Below are positions 11,849 to 55,413 of a stretch of DNA of 59,877 nt, in pieces. How positions within the stretch are numbered: the first letter of the stretch is position 1; each line of letters begins with the position of its first letter. The notes beneath the pieces were generated by a model. That model did not search any database, was not told the origin of the DNA, and was given only the letters and a program-made list of their open reading frames with translations. The stretch is from a virus: positions 1-59,877 of IMG/VR virus record IMGVR_UViG_3300037504_001591; one strand, 5' to 3'. A program made the translations under genes and the position numbers.

Positions 11849-11880
11849 ATGATTAATTATGCTTTAACTTTACTTATAAC

Positions 11881-12240: not shown

Positions 12241-12277
12241 TAAAGTAGAGTTACTTATTATATCTTTAAATTTAGTT

Positions 12278-12446
12278 TACTCTCCGCTTCTTCTCTTGAT
12301 GAGAAGAGCGGGAGTAGCTTTATTTTAAGTAAAGATATTACCGATAGAGTTAATTCTCAATTAATACAGAATTATCAAAAACCAAACGCAAGTGAGCACG
12401 GGGGAGCCCGAAAACTCTCGGGTTTGCTCTCTTTAAATTAAACTCT
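12278..12446 (+). ncRNA. Structured 5' leader RNA (unknown class)
   Basis: Within about 230 bases upstream of the rightward genes there are three helices. The first is a 16-bp stem (TACTC 12278-12282, CCGC 12284-12287 and TCTTCTC 12289-12295 with GAGAAGA, GCGG and GAGTA at 12301-12316), interrupted by two single T bulges. The second is a long-range helix 12346-12355 with 12436-12446. The third, enclosed by it, is GAGCA/TGCTC (12394-12398, 12425-12429) around CCCGA/TCGGG (12407-12411, 12418-12422). Alternatively GGGAG/CTCTC plus CCC/GGG would form an H-type pseudoknot. Positions 12391-12429 are about 60% GC in a very AT-rich genome, a known sign of structured RNA. Confidence 0.55.
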
Positions 12447-12475
12447 GTAAACCCCTTACATTATAGGAGGATATG

Positions 12476-25173: not shown

Positions 25174-25588
25174 TTAATTCTCCTTTAAATAAATCTATTC
25201 CTAACATTTCTGCTATCTTTTTTAAAAGTTCTTTTCTTTTCTCTAATTCTTTATCAAAATTTTCAAGAGCCTTAGCTATTGTATCATTATTTTCTTTTAT
25301 TACTGTTAATTCTTTATTCATATTTTCCTTTAATTCCTTTAATTCCCTAATATCATTATTTAGTTTTCCTAAAGTTTCATTAGCTCTTTTTTCCAAATTT
25401 TTTATTTTATCCATATTTTGATTAAATTTCTCATCAATTAACTCTTTGTTTTCTTTTACTAATTCTTTTAATAAATTAATATCTTGATTTTTATTATTCC
25501 AAAATAAAAATAAAGCAACTCCAATTATTATAATTATTAATATTAATAAATAAGTAATTATCCTAATTGTTTTTATTTGTTCATTCAT
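25166..25588 (-). CDS. Membrane-anchored coiled-coil protein (possible inner-membrane spanin)
   Basis: A 140-residue protein with one transmembrane helix at about residues 9-31 (N-terminus inside) and an almost continuous coiled coil from residue 35 to 125. This is the layout of an i-spanin, and the next, overlapping gene encodes a secreted protein with a coiled coil. It lies directly after the tail genes, where lysis cassettes often are. It could instead be a tail-associated or unknown membrane protein. Confidence 0.65.
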   Translation of the reverse strand: MNEQIKTIRIITYLLILIIIIIGVALFLFWNNKNQDINLLKELVKENKELIDEKFNQNMDKIKNLEKRANETLGKLNNDIRELKELKENMNKELTVIKENNDTIAKALENFDKELEKRKELLKKIAEMLGIDLFKGELNE

Positions 25589-25608
25589 TGTATACTCCTT
25601 TAATTAAT

Positions 25609-30861: not shown

Positions 30862-33800
30862 TTAACCTCTTAATAATTTATTTGTTTGTATATCTTGTCT
30901 AATAGTATCGGATTCTGTAGTAACTTTAGTTGTCTTTTTATCACTAACTTGAATACCAATATTATTTAAAACTTGACTTCCTTGTAAAGTATCTAATTTG
31001 TTTTGTAAACTTCTTAGACTTTCAATCAATAATTCATTACTACTTACTAAAGTCCCAATATCATTAGGTTTAATTATTTCACTTTCTGGTAAAGCACCTG
31101 GTTGAATACCACTAGATAGAGCTTTTAAACTACGATCTCCAGGAGGTATTATAGGTTTATCTATATCTGTATCTATATCTATATCTGTAGGTAATTCTTC
31201 AGTATCTTCTTCAGTATCTTCTTCAGTATTTTCCTCATCAGGATCGTTAACAACAGGATCTTCTGTATATATATTGGTCATCAATGGTATCAACACATCC
31301 TCAAGTAATGTTTCAATATTTGTTAAAATCTCTTCTAAAGCATCTGGGGAATTGTCTAAAATAGCGTCCTCAACATGGCTTAAAACTTCCTGTAAAGCAT
31401 CAAAGTTGAGTTGTTGATCATCTAATAAATCTTGTACATCTGGCAATTCTCCAAGATCACCAGTTGGCTCTGTAGTTTCTCCTGTTAATCCTAGGGCATC
31501 TACATCTATCCCTAATAACCTATATATTTCATCTGGAGTTACTCCTAATTCTAATAATCTTTGAGCCGATTTTACTAAATTTTCATACTCCATAGTTTCG
31601 TCATTGAGTTTTCTTGCTTCGATAACTAACCTTAGATAACTTCTTAATTCTTCATCATATAAAGCGTTTGTTCTACTTAATTCATCATTCATTGATTCCT
31701 GTAATTTTAGTTTTTGTAACTGTAAGTCTAATAATTCTTCTTCTAAATCAAGCATCATACCCGCATATTTTTCATCACTGCCATATAAATCTATCTCTTG
31801 CTCTTTAGCAGCTATTAAATCATCGAGTGCCTGTAATCTTAAATTATTTATAAAATCTTCACTATATCCCATTACTTGGGCTCTTTTAATAACTATTTGC
31901 TGTTCTTTACTAAATTGTGCATCCAGATTATCTAAGTTCTCTTGAATTAAATCGGCTTCTTGAAGTAATAAATCTAATCTTTCCTCTTGTGTTAATAGTC
32001 TTGTACCATCTACTTCATATAATTGTTTATCAAGTTCTAATAATTCATGTATTTTACTAAGTTGAGATGCTAAAACCATGTCTTGATCACCATAAATAGT
32101 ATATAATTGTTCTTGAAGATCCCATCTAGTATTAATTTCATCTTTCATCATTTCTAGTAAAGCATTGAACGCATCGGCATACTCATCTGAAGCATCTATT
32201 ATTTGTTGCTGGCTTTCAATATACCATTGCAGTGCATCTTGAACTTCCTCTTTATCATATTTACCTTGTTTAAACTTATCCCATGATAACCCTGCTTGTT
32301 CTAAAATTTCTCTATACTTTTCAAACCACTCATCATCTGCACTACCCCATCCTAAATTTAGAGGACCACCCCAGTTCACATCTTGTAAATCTTTTAAAGC
32401 CTGTTGTGCCTCAGCTATATTTTCTTGAGCCGCCTCAGTATTAGTAAGGGCGTCTTGCCCACTTGTAATATCAAAACCTTCCTGGTAACTTTCTACTAGT
32501 TCTCTTTGTGCATCTATTTGTGTCTCAATAGTGTTATATATCCCCATGTGCAATTTCTTTTGTAAATCTAATAAATCATTTTGATGTTGTAACTGTTGAA
32601 AAATAAGCTCATTAGCTTCTACTTGTTCTTTTAGAGATTGACTTGCTGAAGTATCAACCATTGCTTTTTGTACAACACCGATGATAGTTTTTGCTAATTT
32701 TAATGCACCTTGTACCCAAACACCTAAACCTGGAATAGCCCCTAAAGCTGTAGCAATTGTATCAAACATCACATTTCCGAAAGCATCCCAGTCTATACCT
32801 TCCCCACGTACAATTAAATCATTTATAATTCCCGCTATACCTTGTAACTGCCCAAAAACATTTTTTACAGATTCCTCATACTCTTGCATTGCTGTTAAAA
32901 CTTGTTCCCTGGTAGTTTTAGCAATATGATCAAGAGCGTCTATTTGTGCGTCATATTGATCTTGTGTAATCTCACCAGCTTCTAATTGCTCATCTAAAAT
33001 TTTTCTTTGCTTTTCTTTATATTTTTGCATTCCTTTATCGGTAGATAATTGCTTAGTAACTTGTACTTTTTTACCCGCACCAAACAAACTACCGATACTA
33101 CTAATAATAGCTAAATTTCCCTGGAAATTTCTTAATGCTAATTCTCCTAATTTATTCTGTGCATCTATTTCTTCTAATATACCATCTCTTAAAGCACGAG
33201 TTGCTTCTAATAAATCTAATTTAGCCTGCTCATAATCTCTTACTTTCTCAATAGAATCCTCAGTTGCCGCTATTTGTTCTTTTATAGCATTTGCTTCCTC
33301 ATTTAAGTTTTGAATAGTTTTTTTATCTAATGGCTGTCCCTCTTTATCTACACCTTCAGTTAGTTGGTTTTTTATAGCTATTAATCTTTGATATAAACCT
33401 TCTCTTTCCTTTAATAATTCATCTGGATCAACTTTTCCTATAAATTCCTCACCAGTAGCTAATCTAAGCTGTTCTGCCATATAGTCTCTTTTTTCTTTTA
33501 ATTGCTTTATTTCAAATGATCTTAGTTTTACTATTTCTTCCTCGTTCAATGTTTGTTCATATTGTAACCTTGCTATTTCCTGCATTATATCAAACATATC
33601 TCTAAGAGGATCAATATCTAAATCTCCAAAAGCACCGAAATCCAAATCTAATATTTCTTTCCACTGCTTATACAACCCATCAGATAATTCTTTTTGATTT
33701 TCTAAATTAGCGACAAACTCCTCACCAAACATGGCTCTTAAACGATCCTTTATAGCCTCAAGCCATTCTTGCTCGGAAATAGTTCCTTCCTCATACATTT

Positions 33801-36800
33801 GTCTAAGTGATTCGGAATCATAATAAATCTTTTCTGCACCGCCATACATAGCAGTAAACTCATCAAATTCTAAACTTTTTAATGCATCTCCTGTTTCAAC
33901 TGCCTTGTTAAATAAATCACCAAAAGAAGATATAAATTCTTCAGAAAATAAATCACCACCTTCTTTTAAATGTTTTAAAGCTCTTTGAGTTCCTTCATCT
34001 AAAGTGTTAATGATTTTAGCTAAATCACTATCACTCATTATATCTTCCCATGACCTCTTTTCATTTCTCATTGCTGTAGATAATTTATCAAATTCATCTT
34101 GATTTAAACTTTGAATTGTTGATAAATAACCTTCTAAAGTTCCGAAAGTTTGTTTTAAATTATATTCTATACCCTGCATTACTTGCTCTGCTAATTGCAA
34201 TGCAGGTGATTTCTTTTCGTATAATTCTTCTTCTCTTTTTTCTGCAGAAAATTGTGAGTATATATCTTGTTGTGCCTCTGTTAGTTGTGGTAAAGACTCA
34301 AAATATTCTATCATTAAATCTCTATATTGTTTTTGGAAATCACCGCTTGCTTGAATCACTTCTTGTTGGTATTGTATTTCTCTTTGTTTTTTATTAGCTA
34401 AATATTCCTCATCCATTACTTCTCTTAATGTATATATTTCACCAGCTATTTCTATTTCTCTATCTAAATATTCCTCACCGTATTCTATTCTCATATCTAA
34501 CTTTTTCTTTTCGTAATTATAATCCATACTTTCTATATCATTTATATACTCTGCATAAGGTCCCGATCTTTCTGTAGTTGAATCTAAATACATATCATAA
34601 AGACGTTGTTGTAAATTAGCCATCGAGGTTTCAACTTCTTTACCTTCCTCATCAAGAGTAGAACTAATATTAAAACCTTCGCCAGTAAAATCACTCATAT
34701 CCTCAAAGGTAGTATTAATGTTATCCATGATTTCTGTTATATTAATACCATAGTCTAACATTTGTTGTATGTATAATTCCATTGCTTGCTGGCGTCTTTC
34801 AAAGAATTCTGTATCTCCTTCAGTAAAATCTTGACCAGCAATATCTTTATAAATATCATAAAGGCTTTGTTGGAATTGTCTTAATTCCCCAGTACCAGTT
34901 TCAAAATCTCTACTAACAACACCATTTAATCTCTGTAAATTTTGATCTAATTTAGATACATAAGCATCTAAATCATATTCTCCTATTTGTTTGAAAGTAT
35001 CTAAAATACTAGTTATATTATCTCTTAATGATTTATCTAGTTTTGCATAAAAAATATTTTCTTTGAATTCCTCATCTCTTTTTAACATATCCTCTATTGA
35101 CATCTCAATTTCTTTACCGCTTTCATCTAATACTGTAGTTGTATAATCTGTCATTGTATAAATAGTATCTGTACTTGTTTTCATTACATTTGCTAAATCT
35201 TTTAATACATCATTTCTCTTAGTTTGACTAACAGCATTTTCATATCTATTTAAAAAATCCTCAACAGATATACCAAACTCACTACTTATTTCCTGTAGAA
35301 TACTTGCCCTTGCAGCTTTTAAAACTTCGGAAGGGTTAATCATTGATTCCTCAGCATTAGGATCTGGATTAGGTACAGCTTTTTTTCCGATACTATTTTG
35401 TATTTCCTCATCTATTTTTTCTAATTCTTTAAGGTATTTTTCTACATTAGTTTGTCTAGTATCTATTAACTTATCTTCCCATTCTTGACGACTCTTTTCC
35501 ATTTCTATATCTAATTTCTTTCTATCTGCTTCCCATTTAGATATAAACTCCTTTTCATTTGTCTCTGGATTTATAATTATTTGTAAATCTAATAATTGAG
35601 TATTATAATTAGCCCAACTATTCCTAACAAAAGCTCTCATCTCATCGTATAAATCTTTTAAAGTAATCCTGCTTTTATCCCAATGAGTCCAATAAGTCCA
35701 ATCAATCTCCCATGTTCCAGTTGATGATCCTGTAAAACCTCCACCAGTATCGCCTCCGCCATCATCGAAACCTTTTTCTAGAGATACAGTTTCTCTTTTT
35801 GTAACTTTTTGTGTTTCAAGTGTTTCTATTGCGTTATTGGTAGCATCTATAATAGCTTGATTCTCCTTATGTTTATTTGTTAATTCTTTTATCTTTGCAT
35901 CTATTCTTTTTTTACTAGTTTCTATTACTTCACCACTTGTAATATTTTCATCTGCTTCCCCACTTTCTCCTCTTAAACCTCCGCCACTAACTAAAGTAGA
36001 TGTTTTAGTACCCCCCTCAGCTGCTAAAAGCAGTTGAGTTAAACTTTCTGTTTCCGATGCTATTTGTGCACTTAAAATTGCTTGTTGCGACTCGTATTCT
36101 GCTATGGCCAATTTTTGTATTTGTACTAATAAAGCTATTTTATCATTTAAACTTAATTTCTGGTTTTCCATTATTTCTTGAATTGTGTTATTTATTGTAG
36201 CTTCTTCATAATTTGCATCTACAATAGTATCAATAATTTTTTTCTTTTCATCTCCTACTCTTAATGCTTGGGCTAAAACATCTCTAGCTACTTCTTTTTC
36301 TACTCTTAACCTTTCCCTTGCGTAGTGTTCATTTAAATCATCTATCATTCTTATTTTTTCACTATTTGACATTTTTTCACTTGCCATTATTTTCTCAATA
36401 GCTGCTTGTTGCTCTTGTTCCAATTCACTAATCATCTGTTCGCCAATTTGCCCAGTTTCATGCATTAATTGCCATAACCTATCAAAAGTTTCAAACTCCA
36501 TATCTTTACCATCAAATAAACCTCTTAATTCATCCGACATATTAGATGCATCTATTCCAGTTTCTTCCATGTAATTTGATATTTCTGCAAATTTACTTGC
36601 TACTGTATCTACCCACTTAAATTGTTTTGCGGCATCACTTAAACCAGACATTTCAACTTGACTTAAAAAGGCTTGAACATCCATATCTTGCCCGCCCTCT
36701 TTTTCAATACTCGATTTAAAACTTTCTGCATAAGTTTTTAAAGTTCTCTTTACATCCCTTTCCGCACCTTTTAAGTTTTCTAAATCTAACCCTGCACTAA

Positions 36801-39800
36801 TTTTAGCGGAAAAATCTATATTTGATATATTAGCTAACATTTCTTTTATAGCTTCTTCTTGATCACTTAAACCATCCTCTAATTCATCTTCAGTTTGAAG
36901 TTGACCTGTTCTAATATTTAATATTTCTTGAAAACCATCTATTTGTTCTTGAATATAATTATAAACTCTATCTCTTTGTTCTGGGGTAACTAATTCTGGA
37001 AGAGAAAAACCTAAATCCCCAAACATATTTTTTATATTTTGTATATCACCTACATTTTTTACCGAAAATGAAGTTTCTTGACCTGAAGATAATTTATTCA
37101 TATCAATAATTATTTTCTTTGCATCTAAAAGACTTTTAATTCTATCTTGTAAATAGTCATTAGCACCTTTTTCGGCTTCTTCTTTGTTTTTACCTTCTAT
37201 TGTTAATTCTTTTTCTATTTCTAATATTTTTTCTTTAGTATCCTCTATTTCTAATATGCTTTTAATTTGTAATTCATATTCTTTAGCAACTTTACCAGTT
37301 AAATGCAATTCTTCTTTTATATATTTTAAAGTATCTTGAGCTAATTTTACTTTTTCTTCACCTGAAGCTGAAGATATTTCTGCAATAGTTTTTTCTAATA
37401 ATACACTTGCTTTCATTTTATCTACAAATTCACTATAAGTAATATTTAATTTATCAAGTAATCTATTTAAATCTGGTATATTTTTACTAAGAGATGTTTC
37501 TAGTTCTTGTGTTGTAGATTCTAAAATAGTTTGATTACTAATTCCTAAAGATCCTAGCGAATCCGAAACGTAAGAAACTACATCTTCTACTATTAATGAT
37601 TTCTTAGCTTGTATTTGATCTAAAAAGTTATTTATAAATGCTAATCCTGACCCACTACCTGCATCTTCAAAAGATGAAATTCCTGCTATAATCATATCAT
37701 TTGTTTTTGATAAAGATTGGATAATGTTTGCATCTAAACTTTTAAAAATATTAAATAAGGTTTCTTGTTCTACCTCACCTATTTTTCCAAATATATCTTG
37801 GTAAGCATCGAGAATAAATTGGGCATTTGTTTCATCCATTGCTCCTGTAGTCATATATCCTGTGTCTGCAGTAATATTCATGTTTCTAAGCTGTTCTAAA
37901 AAATCTCTAAACTGCTCTCCGCTAGCATCTTTTGCATATTTAAATATAGTATTAAAAACTTTTTTAAGCCCCTTTATATTTGTTTCTTTATATAAATCTT
38001 TTGTACTATCTCTTAATACTTCTCCAACAGATTTTGATAGTTGCTTTAAAGCCTCTGGTAATTTATCTAATTTAAAAACATCAAAACCACCCTCATACCC
38101 AGAGAATAGGTTTTTCATATCTTCAAAACCTTTTTTACCTTGCCTAATATCTTCAGCCATCCGTGCGAAATTATCCGCTATCTCTGGTGATATTTTTGCT
38201 ATAATTCCAATAATATTATTAAATTTTTCCGTATTATTAATTAATTCTGGTGTGATTAACTCACCTTTTTCCCCAAAAACCTTAGTAAGAAGTTTAGATG
38301 ACGACCCTAATTTTTTCATCTCATCTGCCATTACATTAAACTTCTGTTCCGCCGATCCAAACATATCTAATAAGAATTTATTCCAACCAACAACAGCACC
38401 ACTCATACCCTCACCAATAGAAGCCATAAAGTTATTCCATGCCGCAGTTCCTCTTTTTTGCCATCTTTCCACAGCACCCGCAGATTTTTCATAAGCAGCC
38501 TCAGTTGTTAACCCTAATGTTTCGGCATTGAGGTTCATTTCTTCCATTATCATATTAAAATCGTCAGCAACATTCCCTGTTAAAGCAAAGGCACCTTGTA
38601 AACCCCTTACATTTTCTAATACATCTTGTAATCCATAACCATTTTCTTCTAATGTTTTCTTTAAAGTTGTTAATGTTCCTATAAAACCTTCAGCTTTAAA
38701 AGCATTTAAACCATAAGTTAAACCTAATTCATCAAATATCTTTTTAGCACCCTCTGCTGGATCTAATAAGTTTTTCATTAATGCTCTTAATTGAGTTGCG
38801 GCTTCTTCAGTATGTAAACCTGTTCTTGTTAATGCTGCTAAACCACTAGTAATTTCCTCGACGGATATTCCTAAAGTTGAAGCCTGGGTAGTGATTTGAC
38901 CTACACTATTAGATATTTCTTCTAAAGTCGCCTTAGCATATTTCATGGCTGTAAACATAGTATCGGATACTCTAGTTACATCTTCTTGAACATAATTTAA
39001 CTCATCATAAGCATTTACTAAAGATGTGATACCATCAACAACTGTATCAAACTCTGCCCTACCACCAATTGATAACTTTGCACCGATATCAAGGACTGGT
39101 TCTAAATTTGCAGCTTCAACGCCAGATGTTAAAGCCTTATACATAGCATTTGTAGCTGTTGGAATTTCTACTCCAAATTTATAAGATATATCTTTTGCTT
39201 GATTTGCTAATGCCTTAAATCCCCCAATTGAATGCAAAGTCATATCATCAATAAGAGTTCCAGATAACCTTACTCCAGAATCAAGTTCCGTAAATTTAGT
39301 TATAATACTATCTATTACTCTATTGATAGTTCTAAGTGTGCTAATTACAGTTAAACCTACACTTCTAAGATCGGTAAATGTTCTAAATAACCCTTTACCG
39401 AAAAGACCAGATTTCTTTTTTGCCTCTTGTTGTTTTCTTATTACATCATTAATTTCTTTTTCAACTATATCACTTTCTTTTTTTATTCTACTAGTATTAA
39501 AAATAGACTTAGTTGATTTCATCTTATTTAAGGTAACTAAAGTATCTTTTAATTCTTTTTCAACTATAGTACCTTCTTTTTTTGCTGCATTCATTCTTTC
39601 TGTTGATTGTTTCATTCTTAAATTATGAGCATCAGTTTGTTGTTTTTGCAATCTTTTATAAGCACTCATTAATTTCCCTATCTCTGCTATTTGTTTAATT
39701 TCAAGTGCTTTTCCTGTCAAAGGTTGTCTGTCTTTACCTAAATATGCTTTTTTTCTTATAGCATCCATTTTAGCCATTAGTTGTTGAAAACTTTTTAAAG

Positions 39801-40176
39801 ATTGCTGGTCATATTTTTCTTTTTCTTTTTGTACTTCTCTTTCGGCTTGAAGTTGCATTCTTTTAGCCTTAGTTAGTCTACTTCTTAAATCTTGTAATAT
39901 TTTTTGATTTGCATTTTTATGGTCTTTTATTATACTATCTAAAGTTTGTTTTATAACTTTGGAAGATTTTTTTACTTCTTTTTCTGACCTAGATCTTACT
40001 GCTTTATTAAAAAGGTTTATTGCATTTTTTAATCTATTTGTATATTCTGTAGAAATTTTACCACCAGAGCTGTTTACTAATTTATCTAAATTTCCAATTA
40101 GATCTCTAAAAGCTCTGCTTACTTTATTGGTATCTGCCTTAAGATCAATAACAATATCTATATTTTCTTCAGCCAT
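30862..40176 (-). CDS. Tape measure protein, 3104 aa
   Basis: The largest gene in the window. Residues about 325-545 match the phage tail minor protein (TP901-type, PhageMin_Tail) core: TNAMYKALTSGVEAANLEPV, GITSLVNAY, then ISVEEITSGLAALTRTGLHT and TQLRALMKNLLDP. Long coiled-coil regions flank it, and a hydrophobic segment lies near 2460-2510 (GAIPGLGVWVQGALKLAK), as expected of a protein ejected into the host membrane. At about 0.15 nm per residue it predicts a tail of roughly 450 nm. It is separated from the tail chaperone gene by five other genes. Confidence 0.93.
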   Translation of the reverse strand: MAEENIDIVIDLKADTNKVSRAFRDLIGNLDKLVNSSGGKISTEYTNRLKNAINLFNKAVRSRSEKEVKKSSKVIKQTLDSIIKDHKNANQKILQDLRSRLTKAKRMQLQAEREVQKEKEKYDQQSLKSFQQLMAKMDAIRKKAYLGKDRQPLTGKALEIKQIAEIGKLMSAYKRLQKQQTDAHNLRMKQSTERMNAAKKEGTIVEKELKDTLVTLNKMKSTKSIFNTSRIKKESDIVEKEINDVIRKQQEAKKKSGLFGKGLFRTFTDLRSVGLTVISTLRTINRVIDSIITKFTELDSGVRLSGTLIDDMTLHSIGGFKALANQAKDISYKFGVEIPTATNAMYKALTSGVEAANLEPVLDIGAKLSIGGRAEFDTVVDGITSLVNAYDELNYVQEDVTRVSDTMFTAMKYAKATLEEISNSVGQITTQASTLGISVEEITSGLAALTRTGLHTEEAATQLRALMKNLLDPAEGAKKIFDELGLTYGLNAFKAEGFIGTLTTLKKTLEENGYGLQDVLENVRGLQGAFALTGNVADDFNMIMEEMNLNAETLGLTTEAAYEKSAGAVERWQKRGTAAWNNFMASIGEGMSGAVVGWNKFLLDMFGSAEQKFNVMADEMKKLGSSSKLLTKVFGEKGELITPELINNTEKFNNIIGIIAKISPEIADNFARMAEDIRQGKKGFEDMKNLFSGYEGGFDVFKLDKLPEALKQLSKSVGEVLRDSTKDLYKETNIKGLKKVFNTIFKYAKDASGEQFRDFLEQLRNMNITADTGYMTTGAMDETNAQFILDAYQDIFGKIGEVEQETLFNIFKSLDANIIQSLSKTNDMIIAGISSFEDAGSGSGLAFINNFLDQIQAKKSLIVEDVVSYVSDSLGSLGISNQTILESTTQELETSLSKNIPDLNRLLDKLNITYSEFVDKMKASVLLEKTIAEISSASGEEKVKLAQDTLKYIKEELHLTGKVAKEYELQIKSILEIEDTKEKILEIEKELTIEGKNKEEAEKGANDYLQDRIKSLLDAKKIIIDMNKLSSGQETSFSVKNVGDIQNIKNMFGDLGFSLPELVTPEQRDRVYNYIQEQIDGFQEILNIRTGQLQTEDELEDGLSDQEEAIKEMLANISNIDFSAKISAGLDLENLKGAERDVKRTLKTYAESFKSSIEKEGGQDMDVQAFLSQVEMSGLSDAAKQFKWVDTVASKFAEISNYMEETGIDASNMSDELRGLFDGKDMEFETFDRLWQLMHETGQIGEQMISELEQEQQAAIEKIMASEKMSNSEKIRMIDDLNEHYARERLRVEKEVARDVLAQALRVGDEKKKIIDTIVDANYEEATINNTIQEIMENQKLSLNDKIALLVQIQKLAIAEYESQQAILSAQIASETESLTQLLLAAEGGTKTSTLVSGGGLRGESGEADENITSGEVIETSKKRIDAKIKELTNKHKENQAIIDATNNAIETLETQKVTKRETVSLEKGFDDGGGDTGGGFTGSSTGTWEIDWTYWTHWDKSRITLKDLYDEMRAFVRNSWANYNTQLLDLQIIINPETNEKEFISKWEADRKKLDIEMEKSRQEWEDKLIDTRQTNVEKYLKELEKIDEEIQNSIGKKAVPNPDPNAEESMINPSEVLKAARASILQEISSEFGISVEDFLNRYENAVSQTKRNDVLKDLANVMKTSTDTIYTMTDYTTTVLDESGKEIEMSIEDMLKRDEEFKENIFYAKLDKSLRDNITSILDTFKQIGEYDLDAYVSKLDQNLQRLNGVVSRDFETGTGELRQFQQSLYDIYKDIAGQDFTEGDTEFFERRQQAMELYIQQMLDYGINITEIMDNINTTFEDMSDFTGEGFNISSTLDEEGKEVETSMANLQQRLYDMYLDSTTERSGPYAEYINDIESMDYNYEKKKLDMRIEYGEEYLDREIEIAGEIYTLREVMDEEYLANKKQREIQYQQEVIQASGDFQKQYRDLMIEYFESLPQLTEAQQDIYSQFSAEKREEELYEKKSPALQLAEQVMQGIEYNLKQTFGTLEGYLSTIQSLNQDEFDKLSTAMRNEKRSWEDIMSDSDLAKIINTLDEGTQRALKHLKEGGDLFSEEFISSFGDLFNKAVETGDALKSLEFDEFTAMYGGAEKIYYDSESLRQMYEEGTISEQEWLEAIKDRLRAMFGEEFVANLENQKELSDGLYKQWKEILDLDFGAFGDLDIDPLRDMFDIMQEIARLQYEQTLNEEEIVKLRSFEIKQLKEKRDYMAEQLRLATGEEFIGKVDPDELLKEREGLYQRLIAIKNQLTEGVDKEGQPLDKKTIQNLNEEANAIKEQIAATEDSIEKVRDYEQAKLDLLEATRALRDGILEEIDAQNKLGELALRNFQGNLAIISSIGSLFGAGKKVQVTKQLSTDKGMQKYKEKQRKILDEQLEAGEITQDQYDAQIDALDHIAKTTREQVLTAMQEYEESVKNVFGQLQGIAGIINDLIVRGEGIDWDAFGNVMFDTIATALGAIPGLGVWVQGALKLAKTIIGVVQKAMVDTSASQSLKEQVEANELIFQQLQHQNDLLDLQKKLHMGIYNTIETQIDAQRELVESYQEGFDITSGQDALTNTEAAQENIAEAQQALKDLQDVNWGGPLNLGWGSADDEWFEKYREILEQAGLSWDKFKQGKYDKEEVQDALQWYIESQQQIIDASDEYADAFNALLEMMKDEINTRWDLQEQLYTIYGDQDMVLASQLSKIHELLELDKQLYEVDGTRLLTQEERLDLLLQEADLIQENLDNLDAQFSKEQQIVIKRAQVMGYSEDFINNLRLQALDDLIAAKEQEIDLYGSDEKYAGMMLDLEEELLDLQLQKLKLQESMNDELSRTNALYDEELRSYLRLVIEARKLNDETMEYENLVKSAQRLLELGVTPDEIYRLLGIDVDALGLTGETTEPTGDLGELPDVQDLLDDQQLNFDALQEVLSHVEDAILDNSPDALEEILTNIETLLEDVLIPLMTNIYTEDPVVNDPDEENTEEDTEEDTEELPTDIDIDTDIDKPIIPPGDRSLKALSSGIQPGALPESEIIKPNDIGTLVSSNELLIESLRSLQNKLDTLQGSQVLNNIGIQVSDKKTTKVTTESDTIRQDIQTNKLLRG

Positions 40177-40187
40177 TGTTAAGTCCT

Positions 40188-40715
40188 TTATTTAAACTTT
40201 CTAAGTAATTCTTTTATCTTTTTTTTTATATATTTTGAAAAACCAGGATCTTTTGAAATATCAATATCTTTGTAATTTTTCCCATGTTGCTCGCCCTTAA
40301 TTGAGGCTAAGGTATATTTTCTATATGGTGATATACCCCTATAATTAACATTTGAATCTGTTAATGTAACATTTAATCCTTTTGCATCTACTTTTATCAA
40401 ATAATTATTTCTTTTTTCACTCGTAAAATCTCCATCTTGTTCGACCATAGGTCTATTCTCACCGTATTTTCTTTTCTTTCTTAAAGTACTTCTTTCATTT
40501 ATATCTAATGGTGATTTACCGTTAATGCCTGTTCTTGAATTATCTACATTACTTGTTATTTGATCTACTATATTTTCACCTAATTCTTGTAAAATAACTT
40601 CTTTAGCTCTTTGATCTATTTTTCCAGAAGAACTAAGGAATTTTATAAGTCTAAATATTTTTGATTCGGCTTTAGATATTTGACTATGGTCTATATCTAT
40701 ATCTATTTTAATCAT
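40188..40715 (-). CDS. Possible tail completion/virion morphogenesis protein
   Basis: A 175-residue basic protein. A helical first half, NSRTGINGKSPLDI and a later conserved-looking RGISPYRKYTLASIKG suggest the virion morphogenesis (Mu gpG / HK97 gp10-like) type, but the match is weak. It lies directly before the tape measure gene, 11 bases away. Confidence 0.5.
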   Translation of the reverse strand: MIKIDIDIDHSQISKAESKIFRLIKFLSSSGKIDQRAKEVILQELGENIVDQITSNVDNSRTGINGKSPLDINERSTLRKKRKYGENRPMVEQDGDFTSEKRNNYLIKVDAKGLNVTLTDSNVNYRGISPYRKYTLASIKGEQHGKNYKDIDISKDPGFSKYIKKKIKELLRKFK

Positions 40716-40717: not shown

Positions 40718-41404
40718 TTAACCTTCGATATAATTAATATTCAATTCTTTTAAATAATAAGTTTCCATTAAAATATTAATTTCTTTATATACTGATGTAT
40801 TTTGAGGTTCTATTACATACATTTTATCTTCAATACCAATAATATTTAAAGCATGTCCACCTTTTTCTCCATCATGCCTTGTATATGAGTATCTCATTCC
40901 AAAAACTGCTATTCCCGCATCACCATCAAATTCTTGTAATAAAGCTACAATATAAACATATACTTGGAATAATCTTTGAAAATCATCACAATCAAATTTT
41001 CTCCATTGATAGAAAACTTTTGTTAATACATTTTCTCTAAACTCTTTTATAATAATATCAAAAGATTCTTTATCTAATATTAAATAAGCTCCATCTGCAA
41101 ATATCATATCATACACAGAAAAACGTTTATCGTAGTAATTTCTACATAATTTATGTATTTTTTTTCTAATATCTTTATAATTAAATATTTCTCCAGAAAC
41201 AGGTAAATCTGTTCTTACTAATATATCATCAATAGATAAAGTTAAACCATCGTCTCCTCCGCCATCATTTAATTCTATTAATACTTCTCTTTCTTTAAAA
41301 GAAAAGTTATATATTAATCTATTTTTTTCTATTTTTGAATCTCTTAATATAGAATGAAATTCTTTAACTATATTTTTATTTACTTGCTTTAATAATTTAT
41401 TCAT
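40718..41404 (-). CDS. Cysteine-peptidase/transglutaminase-like protein (copy 1)
   Basis: A 228-residue soluble protein. Around residues 140-205 it has WRKFDCDDFQRLFQVYVY, then KGGHALNIIGIEDKMYVIEP. A cysteine in DCDD, a later GGHA histidine and an acidic EPQ/N segment make the usual triad order of transglutaminase-like peptidases. It might trim virion proteins, cross-link or cut peptidoglycan peptides. The next gene upstream carries a similar DCDD...H core in a membrane-anchored protein. Activity is inferred from residue pattern only. Confidence 0.55.
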   Translation of the reverse strand: MNKLLKQVNKNIVKEFHSILRDSKIEKNRLIYNFSFKEREVLIELNDGGGDDGLTLSIDDILVRTDLPVSGEIFNYKDIRKKIHKLCRNYYDKRFSVYDMIFADGAYLILDKESFDIIIKEFRENVLTKVFYQWRKFDCDDFQRLFQVYVYIVALLQEFDGDAGIAVFGMRYSYTRHDGEKGGHALNIIGIEDKMYVIEPQNTSVYKEINILMETYYLKELNINYIEG

Positions 41405-41417
41405 TTTTTTATCTCCT

Positions 41418-42104
41418 TTATTGAATAAATAAAAAATTATAATAATTAATTAAATTAAAATATTCTTCCATTTTTTTTATAATCTCATCTTCAGTTTTTA
41501 CTGCTCCTAAATAATGATAAGGTGATAATACTTCATATTCTTTTGAAGTTTCAATTATAACAAAAGAATGACTCATTTTTAAAAAAGGGATCTTTGAAAC
41601 AATAGCTACTTTTTTTATTTTATCTTCTGGAGCAATTTTATAATAAATTAGTAACTCTTTTATATTTTCTGCTTGATCATCACAATCAAAAGAATCATCT
41701 ATCTCATTTAAAATATGCATTCTAAACCATTGCACGCCTATAGTAGATGTCCAATCTATAAATCCTCTAAAAGGATCGTTTTTATATAACCTCATTGGAA
41801 AATACATCTCTTTAATAGCTATTACATCTTCAATAGTTTTAACTTGAGGCTTATGAACTTTTAACATAGAGGATAACTCAAAAGTGCTTTTTACATATCC
41901 CTCTATCCTTGTATATGAATGATTGATTATAGTGGAATTTAAAAAATACCAAGTTTTTAAATAAAACTTTACAGGAACTTTAATCCATTTATCTTTACCT
42001 AAACATATAAGATAACTAAAAAAAGATATAAGCCCAATAACAATAAATATAGGCAAAGCCATTATAAAAATAAAAATCTTTTCAAATATAGTTAATCTTT
42101 TCAT
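41418..42104 (-). CDS. Membrane-anchored cysteine-peptidase/transglutaminase-like protein (copy 2)
   Basis: A 228-residue protein with an N-terminal transmembrane helix (about residues 9-34). The C-terminal half contains DDSFDCDDQAENIKELLIYY, KVAIVSKIPFLKMSHSFVII and YEVLSPYHY, again a DCDD cysteine followed by a histidine strand. The pattern is that of bacterial transglutaminase-like cysteine proteinases. Its start forms an ATGA overlap with the upstream gene. Substrate unknown; a cell-envelope role is plausible. Confidence 0.55.
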   Translation of the reverse strand: MKRLTIFEKIFIFIMALPIFIVIGLISFFSYLICLGKDKWIKVPVKFYLKTWYFLNSTIINHSYTRIEGYVKSTFELSSMLKVHKPQVKTIEDVIAIKEMYFPMRLYKNDPFRGFIDWTSTIGVQWFRMHILNEIDDSFDCDDQAENIKELLIYYKIAPEDKIKKVAIVSKIPFLKMSHSFVIIETSKEYEVLSPYHYLGAVKTEDEIIKKMEEYFNLINYYNFLFIQ

Positions 42105-42889
42105 TCATCTTCCTCTTCCTCATTATTGATATTATGCCCATTGGTTAATACATCTAAACCGTGTAAATGGGATAAAATATCTCCAGCAAACCCAATAATA
42201 AAAGAGTGTATTTGTTGTACATCTCTTTTTGTTAATACAATACCCTCTTTAGGATTTAAAGCTAAAAGCCTGCTTTCTATATAATCTACATAAACTGGTA
42301 TAAAGCGTTGATCAATAAACTTAGAAAACTTTTTAATTAAAATTTGATCATTTGATTTTGATAATTGTGTTGCCATTTGTTCTTTCATTGCTTCTATATA
42401 ATTCTTTAATTCCTCAACTATAATTTTAACACAATTAGAAAATTGCAATTGATTGTCATTTACAAAACTCTGGATATGATCTACAAATAATCTAAATGTT
42501 TTACAACTTACTCTTGTTAAAAACCATCCAACTATAGTTTTCATTACTTCTAACTTCAATGTTGATATTTGATTCATAGAATCAATCAAAGTATCCATTT
42601 TAATATCTATTCCTGCAATCTTATCTTCTATATTTATATCTTTTTCTTCCAATGAAACTATCTTATCTTTTAATTCTTTTATAACCTCTTGTAAATCTTC
42701 CATTGCTTTCTTCTTTCTATTTCCAAATATATTTTTTAAAGATTTTAAGCCTTTGATAAAACTTTTTTTTCTTATTACATTTATAATTAAAAAGAAAAAA
42801 ATAAAAAGTATTACAAAAACTAAGGGAATAAATAATTGATTATCTTTGAAAAAGTTTAATAAGTCTAAAAAAAAATTATATTCATCCAT
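42101..42889 (-). CDS. Membrane protein with coiled coil, 262 aa
   Basis: One transmembrane helix at about residues 17-42, a basic stretch, a coiled coil at about 60-110, a helical domain and an acidic tail (EEEEDE). I do not recognise the family. The domain order suggests a membrane-tethered helical scaffold; it is translationally coupled to the membrane-anchored DCDD protein and may work with it. Confidence 0.65.
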   Translation of the reverse strand: MDEYNFFLDLLNFFKDNQLFIPLVFVILFIFFFLIINVIRKKSFIKGLKSLKNIFGNRKKKAMEDLQEVIKELKDKIVSLEEKDINIEDKIAGIDIKMDTLIDSMNQISTLKLEVMKTIVGWFLTRVSCKTFRLFVDHIQSFVNDNQLQFSNCVKIIVEELKNYIEAMKEQMATQLSKSNDQILIKKFSKFIDQRFIPVYVDYIESRLLALNPKEGIVLTKRDVQQIHSFIIGFAGDILSHLHGLDVLTNGHNINNEEEEDE

Positions 42890-42891
42890 TT

Positions 42892-43512
42892 TTAGCCCTC
42901 ATCTTCAAATAAAGCATTTTCTCCTTCGTTGTTTTCATCTTCTGTTGTTTTTTTCTTTTTTTTCTTCTTCTTTTTAGGAAATTCCTCAAAAAGATTATCT
43001 ATTTTGTCTTCATCTATAACTTGTAAATAAACTGGCTTTCCTTCATCAAATGCATCAATCATTTTATTATAAACAATTTTAAAGCCATCAAAAGAATTTT
43101 GTAAATTACTATAATCATCTTTATAAATTAATTGAGTTCCTACTAAAAGACATCCATCCGTATCTCTGTGATCTACTCCATTATGAAATAAAACATATTC
43201 CCATTTATCACCATCAGATTCATGTATTTCCCAATTTCCTTCTGGTGCACCTACATCAACTACATTAATCATACCCTTAGAAAAAATACCGCTTTTAGCT
43301 TTATATTTATTATATAAACCACCTTCTTGTCTTAATCTTAATTCGTAAGTACCAGCCTCAATTCGAGTTTTACCTGGAACTTTAGCTTTTCTTTTTTCAT
43401 CTTCTATAATAAGTCCTATTAATTCTTTTGTTTTATTTTTTACTTTATAAAGTAAACCTATTGTATCAAATTTAGCTTGATTTACTCTTAGTAAAATAAA
43501 ATTAGTTGCCAT
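42892..43512 (-). CDS. DUF5675 family protein
   Basis: A 206-residue protein. ELIGLIIEDEKR, KVPGKTRIEAGTYELRL, WEIHESDGD and DHRDTDGCLLVG follow the DUF5675 pattern ('tlEd..R..Ki.g.TaIP.G.Y...IH.GN...dT.GCiLvG'), including the histidine and the GC cysteine reminiscent of an L,D-transpeptidase-like active site. Such proteins occur near lysis or tail genes and may act on peptidoglycan. The C-terminus has a run of nine lysines and then a strongly acidic tail. It is the closest thing to a cell-wall enzyme in the window. Confidence 0.7.
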   Translation of the reverse strand: MATNFILLRVNQAKFDTIGLLYKVKNKTKELIGLIIEDEKRKAKVPGKTRIEAGTYELRLRQEGGLYNKYKAKSGIFSKGMINVVDVGAPEGNWEIHESDGDKWEYVLFHNGVDHRDTDGCLLVGTQLIYKDDYSNLQNSFDGFKIVYNKMIDAFDEGKPVYLQVIDEDKIDNLFEEFPKKKKKKKKKTTEDENNEGENALFEDEG

Positions 43513-43566: not shown

Positions 43567-44708
43567 TTAAACTGGATAACTTAACTTATTATCAACTGGC
43601 GAATTATTTGTTTTTTTTGATTTAGGCTGGTGTTTTTTCATATTTTTATTTATTTGATAATTGTGCCATGATCTTTCTGCTACTGCTCGCTGGATTGCAA
43701 TTCTGGGGACTGTGTATCTCCATTTTTGACCGTAACCAAGTTCTTGCCTAACATAAAGTTCATAGTTTGCTGTTGAGTCGAACGACTCATATTCAATATC
43801 GCTTGATGAGCTGTTTGGAGCTTTTTTTTTACATGGTAGGTATTATATTTAACCAATTTTTTAAAAACTGGTATAAACTTATAAATAGGACTTTGTGAAA
43901 GTAATTTAGTAATATAAATATTTAAAAGATCATTAACTAATCTCTTTAAAAAGTCTAATTCAAAAGATTCAAATAAAGGTAAAACCTTTTCTTTAAAAAA
44001 CATTTCAAAACCTTTTGTTTGAGAAATCCTATATTCCGTATTTTCAACTTCAGTTCTATATTCATTAATAGTTAAATAACCTTTTAAAAACTTTTTACTT
44101 GCTTTAATTATTTTGTTAAATAATTTTTTTAAAATTGAATCTTTATTCTTTTCTATATAATCTTTTTTATATTTTAGTAAATCACTTATAATATAATGAT
44201 TAACATTATACAATTCCCTAAAAAGAGTATAATAACTTGTATATTTTATCTCATCCCTATACTCTGCCTCTAATATGAAATAAAGAGAAGAATCTAAAAT
44301 AGCCTCTGGGTTTCTACATTTAGCATACTTAGCAAAAAGACCAAAAAAAGTACTTCTAAAGTTTTTTATTCTATCAATAGACCCCCATAAAACCTCTTTG
44401 TCTTTTTCTTTTAATTTGTTTTCTTCCTTATCCGTTTCAATAGTTTTTTCAATTTCATCAATTTTAGAAAGTATATTTGTTTTTATATAAGCAAAATTAT
44501 CTATAAAATCTATAAATAAAGCCTCTGGAAGCTGGTCTATTGTAAATATTAATCTATCTTTAATACCATCAATTAAAACTTCAATTTGCATCGGTTTCTC
44601 AAAATCAATATCTTCATCTGTAGGTGATACATCTTTTACATTTGTTAGAAACTCTTTTACAGGAGATCCTTGTATAATAGTTTTAAATTTTAATTTGTTT
44701 TTTGCCAT
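43567..44708 (-). CDS. Tail assembly chaperone, -1 frameshift product (380 aa)
   Basis: If ribosomes slip back one base on the A9G run at codons 294-296, translation continues in the -1 frame for 84 codons to a TAA at 43569-43567. The extension reads as ordinary coding sequence (it includes YELYVRQELGYGQKWRYTV and RAVAERSWHNYQINK), fills the otherwise empty gap 43567-43679, and has the codon use of a real gene. The arrangement is that of gpG/gpG-T in lambda: a short chaperone and a longer minor form, made upstream of the tape measure gene and used to coat it. A 6-bp hairpin (43774-43789) lies about 30 bases after the slip site. Confidence 0.72.
43680..44708 (-). CDS. Tail assembly chaperone, zero-frame product (342 aa)
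   Basis: A helical, lysine-rich protein encoded between the tail tube gene and the tape measure, where tail chaperones are found. The N-terminus (LKFKTIIQGSPVKEFLTNVK, then MQIEVLIDGIKDRLIFTI) is beta-rich; most of the rest is helical. It is the major product if no frameshift occurs, ending 46 codons after the slippery run. It is longer than lambda gpG (140 aa), in keeping with the very long tape measure. Ribosome binding site weak (AGGA). Confidence 0.72.
   Translation of the reverse strand: MAKNKLKFKTIIQGSPVKEFLTNVKDVSPTDEDIDFEKPMQIEVLIDGIKDRLIFTIDQLPEALFIDFIDNFAYIKTNILSKIDEIEKTIETDKEENKLKEKDKEVLWGSIDRIKNFRSTFFGLFAKYAKCRNPEAILDSSLYFILEAEYRDEIKYTSYYTLFRELYNVNHYIISDLLKYKKDYIEKNKDSILKKLFNKIIKASKKFLKGYLTINEYRTEVENTEYRISQTKGFEMFFKEKVLPLFESFELDFLKRLVNDLLNIYITKLLSQSPIYKFIPVFKKLVKYNTYHVKKKLQTAHQAILNMSRSTQQQTMNFMLGKNLVTVKNGDTQSPELQSSEQ
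43821..43830 (-). other. Slippery sequence for -1 ribosomal frameshifting
   Basis: The minus strand reads A9G. In the zero frame this is AAA AAA AAG (codons 294-296), so A AAA AAG, the dnaX-type slippery heptamer, is in the correct phase. A -1 slip opens an 84-codon frame. Confidence 0.75.
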
Positions 44709-44808: not shown

Positions 44809-46011
44809 CTAAACAGTTTTTATACCTATACCAATAGGTTTTTTAACTAATAGACCTTTGTTACCACCAACAAACATGGTTCCATCTGCTACTGGAATAA
44901 TCATAAATGGAACTCTTGTTGCTACATTGTGAACATCGACATTACCATCAGTGTAGAGTTTACAAGCTGGAAATCTAACTTCTATCATAATTTCACTTTG
45001 ATACCACCCTCTTAGAACAATACCAAATGAAGGTAATTCTGTAGATGTAGTACTCATATCTGTAAGAGTACCTATAACTGCACCTGTGCTATCTTCTGCA
45101 GATCCTTTTTGATAATTGTTTAATATTCTAAACATAGCAGGATCCAAATCACTTAAAGTTCCAGATATTTCACTGTTTCTTTCGGATACAATAATGGATT
45201 GATACAGTTTAGGATAACCAGATTTGTTTTCTGCTGTAGTAACACTGAAGTTCATACTTATAGTATCTTCTAATTTACCTAAAGATCTTTCGACACAATC
45301 AATATTACTTACTAAATTAACTTCCCATGAAGGTAATAAAGCAAATAGTGATGCAAAACCCTGTGGTAAATCAAATCTTCTAATATAAGATTCTAACTCT
45401 GCATAAAAACAAAGATGTCCCAAAGGAACTGTATATCCATCAGCATCAACTTCACTTGCAGGATCAAAAGGTAAATAAGGTGTATATAAACTCTTATTTA
45501 CTCCAAATTCTAGTACTAATCTGTCGCTTAATTGAGTACCGCCATTATCATGAGCAATTTCTAATGGGTAACCATCTGTTGCAGGTGTTCCTAATGGATC
45601 CTGTGCTTTTTCCAATGATCCTGGCATTTCAACAAAACCTGCGGAAAAATCATCGTTTGGTGTAGTGGTTACCAAAGCTGTAGTTAATCCCGTTGCATGA
45701 TCCACTTGTTCATATTTTATCATTGCGGCACCGTCAAAAGTATTCATATTGACCCATGCTCTACATCTATAAAGATTTCTTGAAGATGAAACAACTACTG
45801 CTGCTTGTTTTGACACATATATACCACTAGTAATACCTGGATCTGTCAAATCTAATTCATCTGTGTCTAATCCAAAATCTATAAAAGATATATCGAAAGG
45901 TGGGTTTTCTCCGCCCGCACCGTCATCTTCAATTCCTCTAATATAAGTACCGACATTGTTGTATTGTAGGTCTTTAACTTTAAAACCCTTGTATTTTGTT
46001 ACACAAGACAT
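44809..46011 (-). CDS. Probable major tail (tube) protein
   Basis: A 400-residue, beta-rich, non-basic protein with glycine- and threonine-rich loops. It is followed at once by a strong terminator and then by the tail chaperone, the usual position of the tube protein. Segments such as ERSLGKLEDTISMNFSVTTA and FGIVLRGWYQSEIMIEVRFP fit a tube protein, but I see no family signature. At 400 residues it is long for a tube protein and may carry an extra surface domain. A contractile sheath is less likely because no separate small tube gene follows. Confidence 0.6.
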   Translation of the reverse strand: MSCVTKYKGFKVKDLQYNNVGTYIRGIEDDGAGGENPPFDISFIDFGLDTDELDLTDPGITSGIYVSKQAAVVVSSSRNLYRCRAWVNMNTFDGAAMIKYEQVDHATGLTTALVTTTPNDDFSAGFVEMPGSLEKAQDPLGTPATDGYPLEIAHDNGGTQLSDRLVLEFGVNKSLYTPYLPFDPASEVDADGYTVPLGHLCFYAELESYIRRFDLPQGFASLFALLPSWEVNLVSNIDCVERSLGKLEDTISMNFSVTTAENKSGYPKLYQSIIVSERNSEISGTLSDLDPAMFRILNNYQKGSAEDSTGAVIGTLTDMSTTSTELPSFGIVLRGWYQSEIMIEVRFPACKLYTDGNVDVHNVATRVPFMIIPVADGTMFVGGNKGLLVKKPIGIGIKTV

Positions 46012-46475: not shown

Positions 46476-46868
46476 TTATACTGGTAGTGGTATTTCCGAT
46501 ACTATCATATTAATTTTACATAATTGACCAGCATCTGTACATTCTTCTAAAAGATATGCAATTGTATCATCAATACCTACTGCAACATCAAAACCACCTG
46601 TCGCAGTCTGTGTTAGAGCCTCACCTTTAGCTAAGGCACTTTCTACTATGCCGTAAGCTTCGCCTTGTCTAATAACAGGCACAGGATCTCCAGCTCTTAC
46701 ATCTTTTGTTACTACACCTTTCGTAGGGGGAGGTGTTGCTGCATCACATACTTTTACATATCCTTCTGTAGCGTCATCTAATACATTGTAGCCCTGGTTA
46801 ATATCCGTTGAGGCTATTCCTGCTGTTATGATTTCTACAGGTTGATATTTACTATTGTATTCGCTCAT
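46476..46868 (-). CDS. Capsid decoration-type protein 1 (DUF2190-like)
   Basis: A 130-residue beta-rich protein. The sequence GVVTKDVRAGDPVPVIRQGE followed by ALAKGEALTQTATGG is the DUF2190 / lambda gpD-like pattern of small proteins that sit on and stabilise capsids. It is the third of three tandem genes of this type in transcription order. The other two share 'GI(V/T)...V.(V/I)I..GE(A/S)' cores but little overall identity. Confidence 0.7.
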   Translation of the reverse strand: MSEYNSKYQPVEIITAGIASTDINQGYNVLDDATEGYVKVCDAATPPPTKGVVTKDVRAGDPVPVIRQGEAYGIVESALAKGEALTQTATGGFDVAVGIDDTIAYLLEECTDAGQLCKINMIVSEIPLPV

Positions 46869-46878
46869 TAATAACTCC

Positions 46879-47235
46879 TTATGCTCCTCTTTTAAAAACT
46901 AGCACTTTTAGTTTTTCCCCATCGGCAACAGTTTCTAAAGCTCTCGCAAAAGCTATCTCTGCCGCCGCTACTGTACTAACTTTTCCATCAGTTGTAGCAA
47001 ATAAAAGATCACCCTCTGTTATGGCACCATCGGCTATAGCTATAGCTTCTCCATAACTAATAACACTAATAGCATGATTTTTATAAATACCACCTAATGG
47101 TGTAATACCTATAACAGGTAAACCTGGTGCTGTGGGCAAATCAAAATCGTAATTTAATGCTAAACATTCTCCAATGTTTTCTGTTGCTACTTTTCCAGTT
47201 TTCATTTGAATTACTGGGTTTTTTGAGTATTTCAT
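46879..47235 (-). CDS. Capsid decoration-type protein 2 (DUF2190-like)
   Basis: A 118-residue protein with GITPLGGIYKNHAISVISYG, then ADGAITEGDLLFATTDGK and FARALETVADGEKLKVLVFK, the same beta-tulip-like layout as its neighbours. It is expected to decorate the capsid surface. The gene is 11 bases from each neighbour's coding sequence, in a tight three-gene run. Confidence 0.7.
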   Translation of the reverse strand: MKYSKNPVIQMKTGKVATENIGECLALNYDFDLPTAPGLPVIGITPLGGIYKNHAISVISYGEAIAIADGAITEGDLLFATTDGKVSTVAAAEIAFARALETVADGEKLKVLVFKRGA

Positions 47236-47246
47236 TTATTCACTCC

Positions 47247-47633
47247 TTATATACTAGGTATTACATCAACTTTTATATAATATTCACCTGCAACGGCTAC
47301 ATCCTCTAAAGCAACGGCGACAGCAGGTTGTCCTGCCGAAGGGGCTTTACCTTTACCTGTGGCATTAACAGTAACATTACCACCCTTTGTAAAAACATCT
47401 CCTGGCCCTGTTGCCATGAAAGATTCTCCTCTTGTAATAATAGAAACCTCATCATTTAGAACAGCATCTTGTTGTACAATACCTATAGATTTATTACCAG
47501 TAACTGCCACCACTATTTTACCATTTGCATCATATTTTACAAAAGTAAATTTTTCTAAAGTTCCTCCTGCTACTTCAGTTTTCACTTCTACCGCAGGACT
47601 TTTTGTTATAACACTTTTATATGTATAAGCCAT
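47247..47633 (-). CDS. Capsid decoration-type protein 3 (DUF2190-like)
   Basis: A 128-residue protein with GIVQQDAVLNDEVSIITRGE, then VFTKGGNVTVNATGKG and VALEDVAVAGEYYIKVDVI. It follows the DUF2190/gpD-like pattern best of the three. It should bind the capsid lattice after expansion. First of the tandem trio in transcription order. Confidence 0.7.
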   Translation of the reverse strand: MAYTYKSVITKSPAVEVKTEVAGGTLEKFTFVKYDANGKIVVAVTGNKSIGIVQQDAVLNDEVSIITRGESFMATGPGDVFTKGGNVTVNATGKGKAPSAGQPAVAVALEDVAVAGEYYIKVDVIPSI

Positions 47634-53717: not shown

Positions 53718-54104
53718 TTAAATATTTTGAATTTTATCTAAAGCATTCAACATATCTTCTCTTATCATTGATCTTAAGTTAACTTTCAAGAAATCTTGTG
53801 TTCCTTTTTTTACTACCATCACTGTATTGTACATGTCATTCGAGTTATCAAAACCAATGTAACTTGCAGTAAACCTTGTTGAAGGATCCGCAGTTTTTTG
53901 TGCCCCTTGATCATCAACAGGATCTTCCTCATTTATAGCATTTAAAGTGTTTAAGTCTGTATATGCAGAAGTTGCTAAAGTTTTAGTAACAACCATAGTT
54001 ACACTTTTATCTTTACCTAGTATTACTATTTCCCCTCTTTCACTTCCAACTAAAGTTGAGGTAATGAAAGATACAATATTGACAGGCTGGTTAATTTCTA
54101 TCAT
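53718..54104 (-). CDS. Hypothetical protein, 128 aa
   Basis: An unrecognised protein with a beta-rich first half (VNIVSFITSTLVGSERGEIV) and helical end. It overlaps the ParB-methyltransferase gene by 14 bases and belongs to the head operon. Virion composition-like, probably structural. Confidence 0.62.
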   Translation of the reverse strand: MIEINQPVNIVSFITSTLVGSERGEIVILGKDKSVTMVVTKTLATSAYTDLNTLNAINEEDPVDDQGAQKTADPSTRFTASYIGFDNSNDMYNTVMVVKKGTQDFLKVNLRSMIREDMLNALDKIQNI

Positions 54105-55413
54105 TTATTTCTCCTTTACCATAATATTCGGCTTGGTTTTTGGTATAATCTTCCCAAAAACCAATCATCTTTTTTAAATCCTTTTGAGATTTTACAATTC
54201 CTATATATTTTCTTTTAGTGTTTTCACAGGCTAAAAGATTATTACAATTTTTAGCATAAAACTCTAATACTATATCGTTTTCAATCGTGAATGTATTTAT
54301 TAAAGCCTTGTTATGACTTCTATTTACTTCATTTGTACTTTTCAACACATTAAATAAAGGTTTAAAGCCTTTATTGTCTCTCATATTTTTATGTTTTTCT
54401 TGTAGTAATATATTCATATCATTATCGTTGTATATCGTTTGTATTGTATAAATAGGTGAATCTCTATATTGAAAAACATCTATTGTGAAAAATCCATTAC
54501 TTAACTCTCCAAATTGTTTGCCATTATCTTCTATTATTATTATCGAATTTTTGTATTTGTAAAATTTTTTCAAGTATTCAATTAAATAGTAACTATAAGT
54601 AGACTTATGACCTGAAGATTTATTTATAATATTATGTGAGGTTAATAATAAAAAATTATTTTTCTTTTTTACTAATCTTGTTAAATAATCTAAAATACCT
54701 TTTATATAAACAGTAATTTGATTTTCTTTTATATTTTCAATTAAATCTACGGGTATATCAATTAAAATTAGATTAGCTTTTGGTATTATATTACTTATTT
54801 CCTCAATGTGTGTTTCATTAGCAGAATTATAACATAATAAGTAATTTTTACCTAATTTCCATATATCTCCTTCATTATATTTTCTATTATCTTTATCAAT
54901 TTCAATTTGAATTAAATCTGTATTATAAAATTGTTTTTCTAATTCAAAATTAAGACTTATTTCTTCTCTAGGCTCTGTTAAATACAATCTTAATTCTAAA
55001 GGAGAATAGCCAGTAACTTCTACTATCTCATCTTCAGTAATATCATAGTTATTTCTAATATCTCTAAGCAATTTTTTTGTTTTTTCTGGATTATCCGATC
55101 CTCGTAACTTGTTATAAGAAAGAGTAAGTAACTTTCTTTGAAGTTCATTTAACTGCTTTATTTTGGCTGGTATGTATTTATAACCTAGTTTCTTTACTGC
55201 TTTGTATCTATGTTCTCCATCTACAATTTCATAATTCCCATGAGATAAATAAGTAAGAATTATAGGCTCATCAAATCCATAAGTTTTGATATTTTCAACT
55301 AAAATATCAAATTTTTCTTTACTCATTACATTATTGTTATATTTATTAGGTTTTATTTTATTTAATGGAATTAATTTATAATTCTCATCTACTTCAAAAG
55401 TAACATCACTCAT
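54091..55413 (-). CDS. ParB-domain protein fused to a degenerate DNA methyltransferase
   Basis: A 440-residue protein. Residues 10-100 form a ParB/sulfiredoxin-type domain: IPLNKIKPNKYN, the DGEHRYKAVKKLGY motif (from residue 65). After a linker, GDIWKLGKNYLLCYNSAN and ILIDIP occupy the place of the methyltransferase 'GDi..Lg.h.L.cGDS' and DPPY motifs, and VLEFYAKNCNNLLACENTKR replaces DPF.GSGTtl.A.e.tgR. Both catalytic and SAM motifs are lost, so the methyltransferase half is probably inactive and keeps only DNA binding. ParB-methyltransferase fusions beside terminases are known in phages. Its ATG overlaps the stop of terL by 1 base. Confidence 0.75.
   Translation of the reverse strand: MSDVTFEVDENYKLIPLNKIKPNKYNNNVMSKEKFDILVENIKTYGFDEPIILTYLSHGNYEIVDGEHRYKAVKKLGYKYIPAKIKQLNELQRKLLTLSYNKLRGSDNPEKTKKLLRDIRNNYDITEDEIVEVTGYSPLELRLYLTEPREEISLNFELEKQFYNTDLIQIEIDKDNRKYNEGDIWKLGKNYLLCYNSANETHIEEISNIIPKANLILIDIPVDLIENIKENQITVYIKGILDYLTRLVKKKNNFLLLTSHNIINKSSGHKSTYSYYLIEYLKKFYKYKNSIIIIEDNGKQFGELSNGFFTIDVFQYRDSPIYTIQTIYNDNDMNILLQEKHKNMRDNKGFKPLFNVLKSTNEVNRSHNKALINTFTIENDIVLEFYAKNCNNLLACENTKRKYIGIVKSQKDLKKMIGFWEDYTKNQAEYYGKGEINDRN

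Follow-up and report, generated by a model that had tools for sequence, protein, structure and literature searches.

The tail chaperone gene of phage lambda carries the slippery heptamer G_GGA_AAG, and its product gpG is about 140 amino acids long. Tail chaperones are typically recognised by a −1 extension close to the 3′ end of a gene located after the tail tube and upstream of the tape measure, and a conserved −1 frameshift of tail assembly chaperones was reportedly described by Xu, Hendrix and Duda in 2004. Lambda makes gpG and gpGT in a ratio of about 30:1, the tape measure being bound by G and the tail tube by T, and low-level G-T frameshifting is conserved widely among long-tailed phages although sequence similarity is low (PMC5009743). 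Frameshift rates of 6-7% were measured for two cloned tail-chaperone genes of phage origin (PMC3711429), and phage phiCbK slips on AAAAAAC (PMC3556154). The heptamer A_AAA_AAG is the natural site of E. coli dnaX and is among the most efficient in E. coli (PMC5009743; PMC4066793).

We consider here a candidate of this kind in a single virus window, the whole 59,877-nucleotide stretch of IMG/VR record IMGVR_UViG_3300037504_001591 (positions 1 to 59,877). The window has a G+C content of 27%, and its minus strand carries nearly all genes. The head genes run in the order terminase, protease, capsid and portal (phrog_38, 8158, 1005 and 113, respectively). After the portal come three cement-like proteins, a 142-aa protein, a 400-aa protein and then a 342-aa gene; the next five genes are small, and a tape measure of 3104 residues follows them. 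The features that matter to the argument are these:

44809..46011, minus strand: 400-aa protein just upstream of the 342-aa gene, where the major tail protein would be expected; presumed tail tube, from position
43680..44708, minus strand: zero-frame gene of 342 amino acids, candidate gpG-like tail-assembly chaperone (ORF call)
43822..43830, minus strand: run of exactly nine A on the coding strand, possible frame-change site (sequence)
43821..43827, minus strand: slippery heptamer A_AAA_AAG in zero-frame phase (sequence)
43567..43821, minus strand: −1 frame extension of 84 codons plus stop, giving a 380-aa fusion (sequence, open-frame statistics, codon usage)
43680..43821, minus strand: overlap of about 46 codons read in both frames (open-frame and codon-usage tests)
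43774..43789, minus strand: small hairpin UGAGUC-GUUC-GACUCA, 31 nt past the site (RNA folding)
30862..40176, minus strand: tape measure protein, 3104 amino acids (PF10145, E 3.9e-21; phrog_23013, E 1.1e-29)

Both family matches confirm the tape measure, and the extension lies upstream of it, as the first-pass annotation had proposed, with five genes in between. Tail length follows a rule of about 0.15 nm per tape measure residue, by which this protein would correspond to a very long tail of roughly 450 nm. Elsewhere in the window, three small adjacent proteins at 46476-47633 all match phrog_673 or cement families and appear as tandem capsid cement-like copies, while a ParB-like/DNA methyltransferase-like protein (54091-55419) sits amid the packaging and head genes. 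About 1 kb at 11407-12473 is without clear genes and holds several A8, T8 and T9 runs, including an adjacent T8A8 and two T9; it may be an origin or serve in regulation.

Codons 293-297 of the 342-aa ORF read GTA AAA AAA AAG CTC, and a G at 43821 directly follows the nine A (A9G = 43830..43821, minus strand). Sequence and ORF calls thus agree with the earlier placement of AAA AAA AAG at codons 294-296, with A AAA AAG in phase for a −1 slip. A second in-phase heptamer, A_AAA_AAA, starts one codon earlier at 43830; slipping back by one base on either heptamer yields an identical protein of 296 + 84 residues, or 380 amino acids. The heptamer A_AAA_AAG by itself is weak evidence: it is common in this genome, with 20 in-phase occurrences in 18779 codons, no more than chance. 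Another of these lies in the downstream gene for a DUF5675 protein (42892-43512), within a nine-lysine run that precedes an acidic tail near the end of that protein.

The state of the −1 frame is more informative. Stops recur in it up to codon 287 and are followed by 91 open codons, 84 of them beyond the site, before the stop at 43567-43569; the coordinates and codon numbers originally given for this opening were right. The 84 codons past the site translate as APNSSSSDIEYESFDSTANYELYVRQELGYGQKWRYTVPRIAIQRAVAERSWHNYQINKNMKKHQPKSKKTNNSPVDNKLSYPV, and the junction of the 380-aa fusion product reads HVKKK-APNSSSSDIEYESF. No ATG, GTG or TTG start is present in the −1 ORF except an ATG 24 codons from its end, and because it has no usable start of its own we take it to be reached through a frame change. 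In 37 other genes of the window, none of 9731 test positions was followed by 84 open −1 codons and none of 11137 by 46; the longest out-of-frame −1 open run within the window's genes is 45 codons. A scan of 66 genes returned this as the sole −1 or +1 extension that is not explained by a self-starting neighbour gene. The extension does fill 113 bases, but these are not the whole of an intergenic gap, as had been suggested, since the distance from the zero-frame stop to the next start (43512) is 167 bases.

Two other candidates for recoding in the window were rejected. A second frame change at the A9 run (40219-40227) of the 175-aa gene before the tape measure fails because a stop between that run and the start closes the tape-measure frame. 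An alternative-frame ORF of 105 amino acids (25581-25898) shares its sequence with the last part of a tail protein of 478 residues, which is repetitive (25609-27045); recoding suggests that this ORF is mostly an effect of that protein's composition.

A codon-usage score trained on the genes of the window itself changes frame at the same place. The −1 frame scores about −0.5 ahead of the site, turns to +0.17 at the site and remains near or above zero until its stop; the exception is a dip to about −0.3 in the middle, where GC is high. The zero-frame score falls near the site and is about −0.8 after its own stop. Together with the rarity of such openings elsewhere, this switch bears out the original impression that the extension resembles real protein, and its translation as part of the 342-aa gene is well supported. 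Across the 46-codon overlap both frames score between typical coding and typical non-coding sequence. The overlap has a G+C content of 43% (median 29% for gene stretches of equal length, placing it in the top 1.2%), and its −1 codons deviate from genome usage (p 0.0002); GC-richness and deviant codons are as expected of doubly coding DNA. When the −1 protein was recoded with genome codon usage the zero frame stayed open 2.7% of the time, and when the zero-frame protein was recoded the −1 frame stayed open 0.8% of the time. When only the region's own synonyms were shuffled, the zero frame remained open in 75% of cases (20% in the reverse test), and because this weakens the test, support for double coding is moderate. 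Taken together, the recoding, GC and codon-usage results speak more for DNA that codes twice than for a gene with one frame and an indel, and each of the two frames looks coding across the overlap.

Stimulatory elements for a ribosomal shift were also sought. RNA folding of the first 100 bases past the site gave no structure better than shuffles, and no region's z-score stands out; the small hairpin at 43774..43789 is probably too distant from the site to stimulate. No Shine-Dalgarno-like stretch is seen upstream of the slip site. Neither kind of element is obligatory for −1 programmed frameshifting, but since no structure beyond shuffles follows the site, the shift, if ribosomal, is probably low-level.

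The phage appears very isolated: a single distant relative turned up among the viral contigs and none among the genome contigs. Viral and genome contigs were scanned with the 342-aa gene, the extension, the 400-aa protein, the tape measure, the portal and the capsid as queries. The sole relative in the viral contigs, L002, is distant (portal 52% and capsid 37% identical) and ends just after its portal gene, before the tail genes; it carries a similar-looking ParB-like/methyltransferase-like protein in the matching place (605-1927). Matches in the genome contigs were due to chance only, with no relative among them, and tblastn against phages and plasmids returned only distant portal, primase and terminase matches. 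Neither the 342-aa gene nor the extension has a homologue in any collection searched (viral contigs, genome contigs, phages/plasmids). In a survey of frame transitions, unclustered (orphan) cases were often errors or recent indels (PMC3711429), and for this reason our confidence in a programmed event is kept only a little above even.

The 342-aa protein is predicted to be helical, with low confidence, and has no PHROGs, Pfam or NCBIfam match, chaperone families included. Structure predictions without an alignment were poor (mean pLDDT 41 and 30 for the 342-aa and 400-aa proteins, respectively), and a PDB sequence search gave no matches. The 400-aa protein likewise has no family match and its fold prediction failed. 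Tail chaperone families diverge strongly, and a missing family match does not exclude a chaperone. The first-pass designation as a tail chaperone has a positional basis, between the presumed tail protein and the tape measure, and no family match; given a real frame change, this position makes it fairly probable that the 342-aa gene is a tail-assembly chaperone. The locus is unusual in that a lysis-like module (40718-43512, minus strand) separates the candidate chaperone from the tape measure. Of the five genes in between, one encodes the DUF5675 protein (PF18925), one a protein whose N-terminal segment is hydrophobic, and two encode candidate cysteine peptidases, judged by their Cys-Asp-Asp...His patterns.

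Several other explanations of the opening deserve consideration. That the −1 ORF is open by chance or forms a small gene by itself is very improbable: 76 codons could be read from a non-standard ATT start at 43797, but no ribosome-binding site is seen, the standard starts are missing from all but the last 24 codons, and openings of this length were absent from every position sampled. A one-base indel, in which A10 is the real or original run, a plain reading of the gene gives 380 amino acids and the present A9 reflects an assembly error or recent mutation, is a more serious proposition, though an unlikely one. Homopolymers are where such changes occur, the gene belongs to the orphan class in which errors are frequent, and the 75% obtained by own-synonym shuffling would fit. 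Against this, the zero frame would have to stay open for 46 codons past the site by luck, which happens at 6 of 11137 places (4 of 542 in GC-rich stretches) and seldom in synonymous recoding, and the window holds no other broken gene despite 14 other runs of eight or nine A or T in genes. RNA polymerase could also add an A on the A9 run, and ordinary translation of an A10 message would then yield the same 380-aa fusion. Runs of nine A or T do slip in bacteria (PMC5009743), Citrobacter tssM1 uses A11 to make about 20-25% product (PMC4256274), and a run of nine A exceeds the need of the heptamer. We nevertheless regard this as rather unlikely: the in-phase A_AAA_AAG already provides ribosomes with an efficient slip site, the shift is ribosomal in known tail chaperones, and such runs are evidently tolerated, because this phage has intact genes that contain several A8 runs and another A9. 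Both kinds of slippage may be active on the A9 run. It is doubtful, however, that a large tail chaperone would owe its extension to polymerase slippage there, alone or with ribosomal slippage, in which case the ratio of products would be set at transcription. Slippage by the ribosome, rather than by the polymerase or an indel between A9 and A10, is thus the likely cause. The initial call of a programmed −1 frameshift is well supported as regards an extension translated with the gene; as regards the ribosome as its cause it is likely, with no close stimulator standing out.

A different objection accepts the frame change and concerns the gene, which might encode some other protein, tail-related or linked to lysis, of which a rare longer form is made. 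The protein matches no chaperone family, it is long for a gpG (342 amino acids, indeed more than twice the length of the lambda protein, as had been pointed out), and directly downstream lies the lysis-like module, not the tape measure. We hold this to be unlikely, if worth keeping in view, given that position and a −1 extension near the 3′ end are together the usual tail-chaperone mark and that no other gene in the window has them.

With slightly better than even confidence, then, we propose a −1 ribosomal frameshift on A9G that gives a tail-assembly chaperone 342-aa and 380-aa products. Most ribosomes would read the zero frame through 342 codons and make the short product. A minority would move one base back on A_AAA_AAG inside the A9 run, the two lysyl-tRNAs re-pairing on AAA AAA during the slip, and would read 84 more codons to complete the fusion. 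By analogy with gpG/gpGT, the short form may coat the tape measure while the extension of the rare long form may recruit tail-tube subunits. The two-product arrangement is of a familiar kind. If correct, this would extend tail-chaperone frameshifting to an isolated, very AT-rich phage lineage with a large chaperone, and one that has a lysis-like module between chaperone and tape measure; the general picture of such frameshifting would be unchanged. The single A-run would also make this a handy case for telling ribosomal from transcriptional slippage.

Among known systems, the poly-A slippage of Citrobacter tssM1 differs in its run (A11, as opposed to A9 here), in its unrelated protein and in having been demonstrated by mass spectrometry of the message (PMC4256274). 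The phiCbK tape measure chaperones gp93/gp94 share an A-rich slippery site and an extended form with this locus (PMC3556154), but there is no detectable sequence match and the neighbourhood is different. E. coli dnaX has the same heptamer, A_AAA_AAG; a Shine-Dalgarno-like element lies upstream of the dnaX site and a stem-loop close to it, neither of which is seen here, and the dnaX shift gives the shorter product where that of the phage would give the longer one. In lambda gpG/gpGT the heptamer is G_GGA_AAG, as against A_AAA_AAG in an A9 run here, no sequence similarity to the 342-aa protein was found, and here five genes come before the tape measure. What the candidate would share with lambda is the arrangement: a slippery heptamer for a −1 shift close to the 3′ end, a place between a presumed tail tube and the tape measure, and two predicted products with a common N-terminus.
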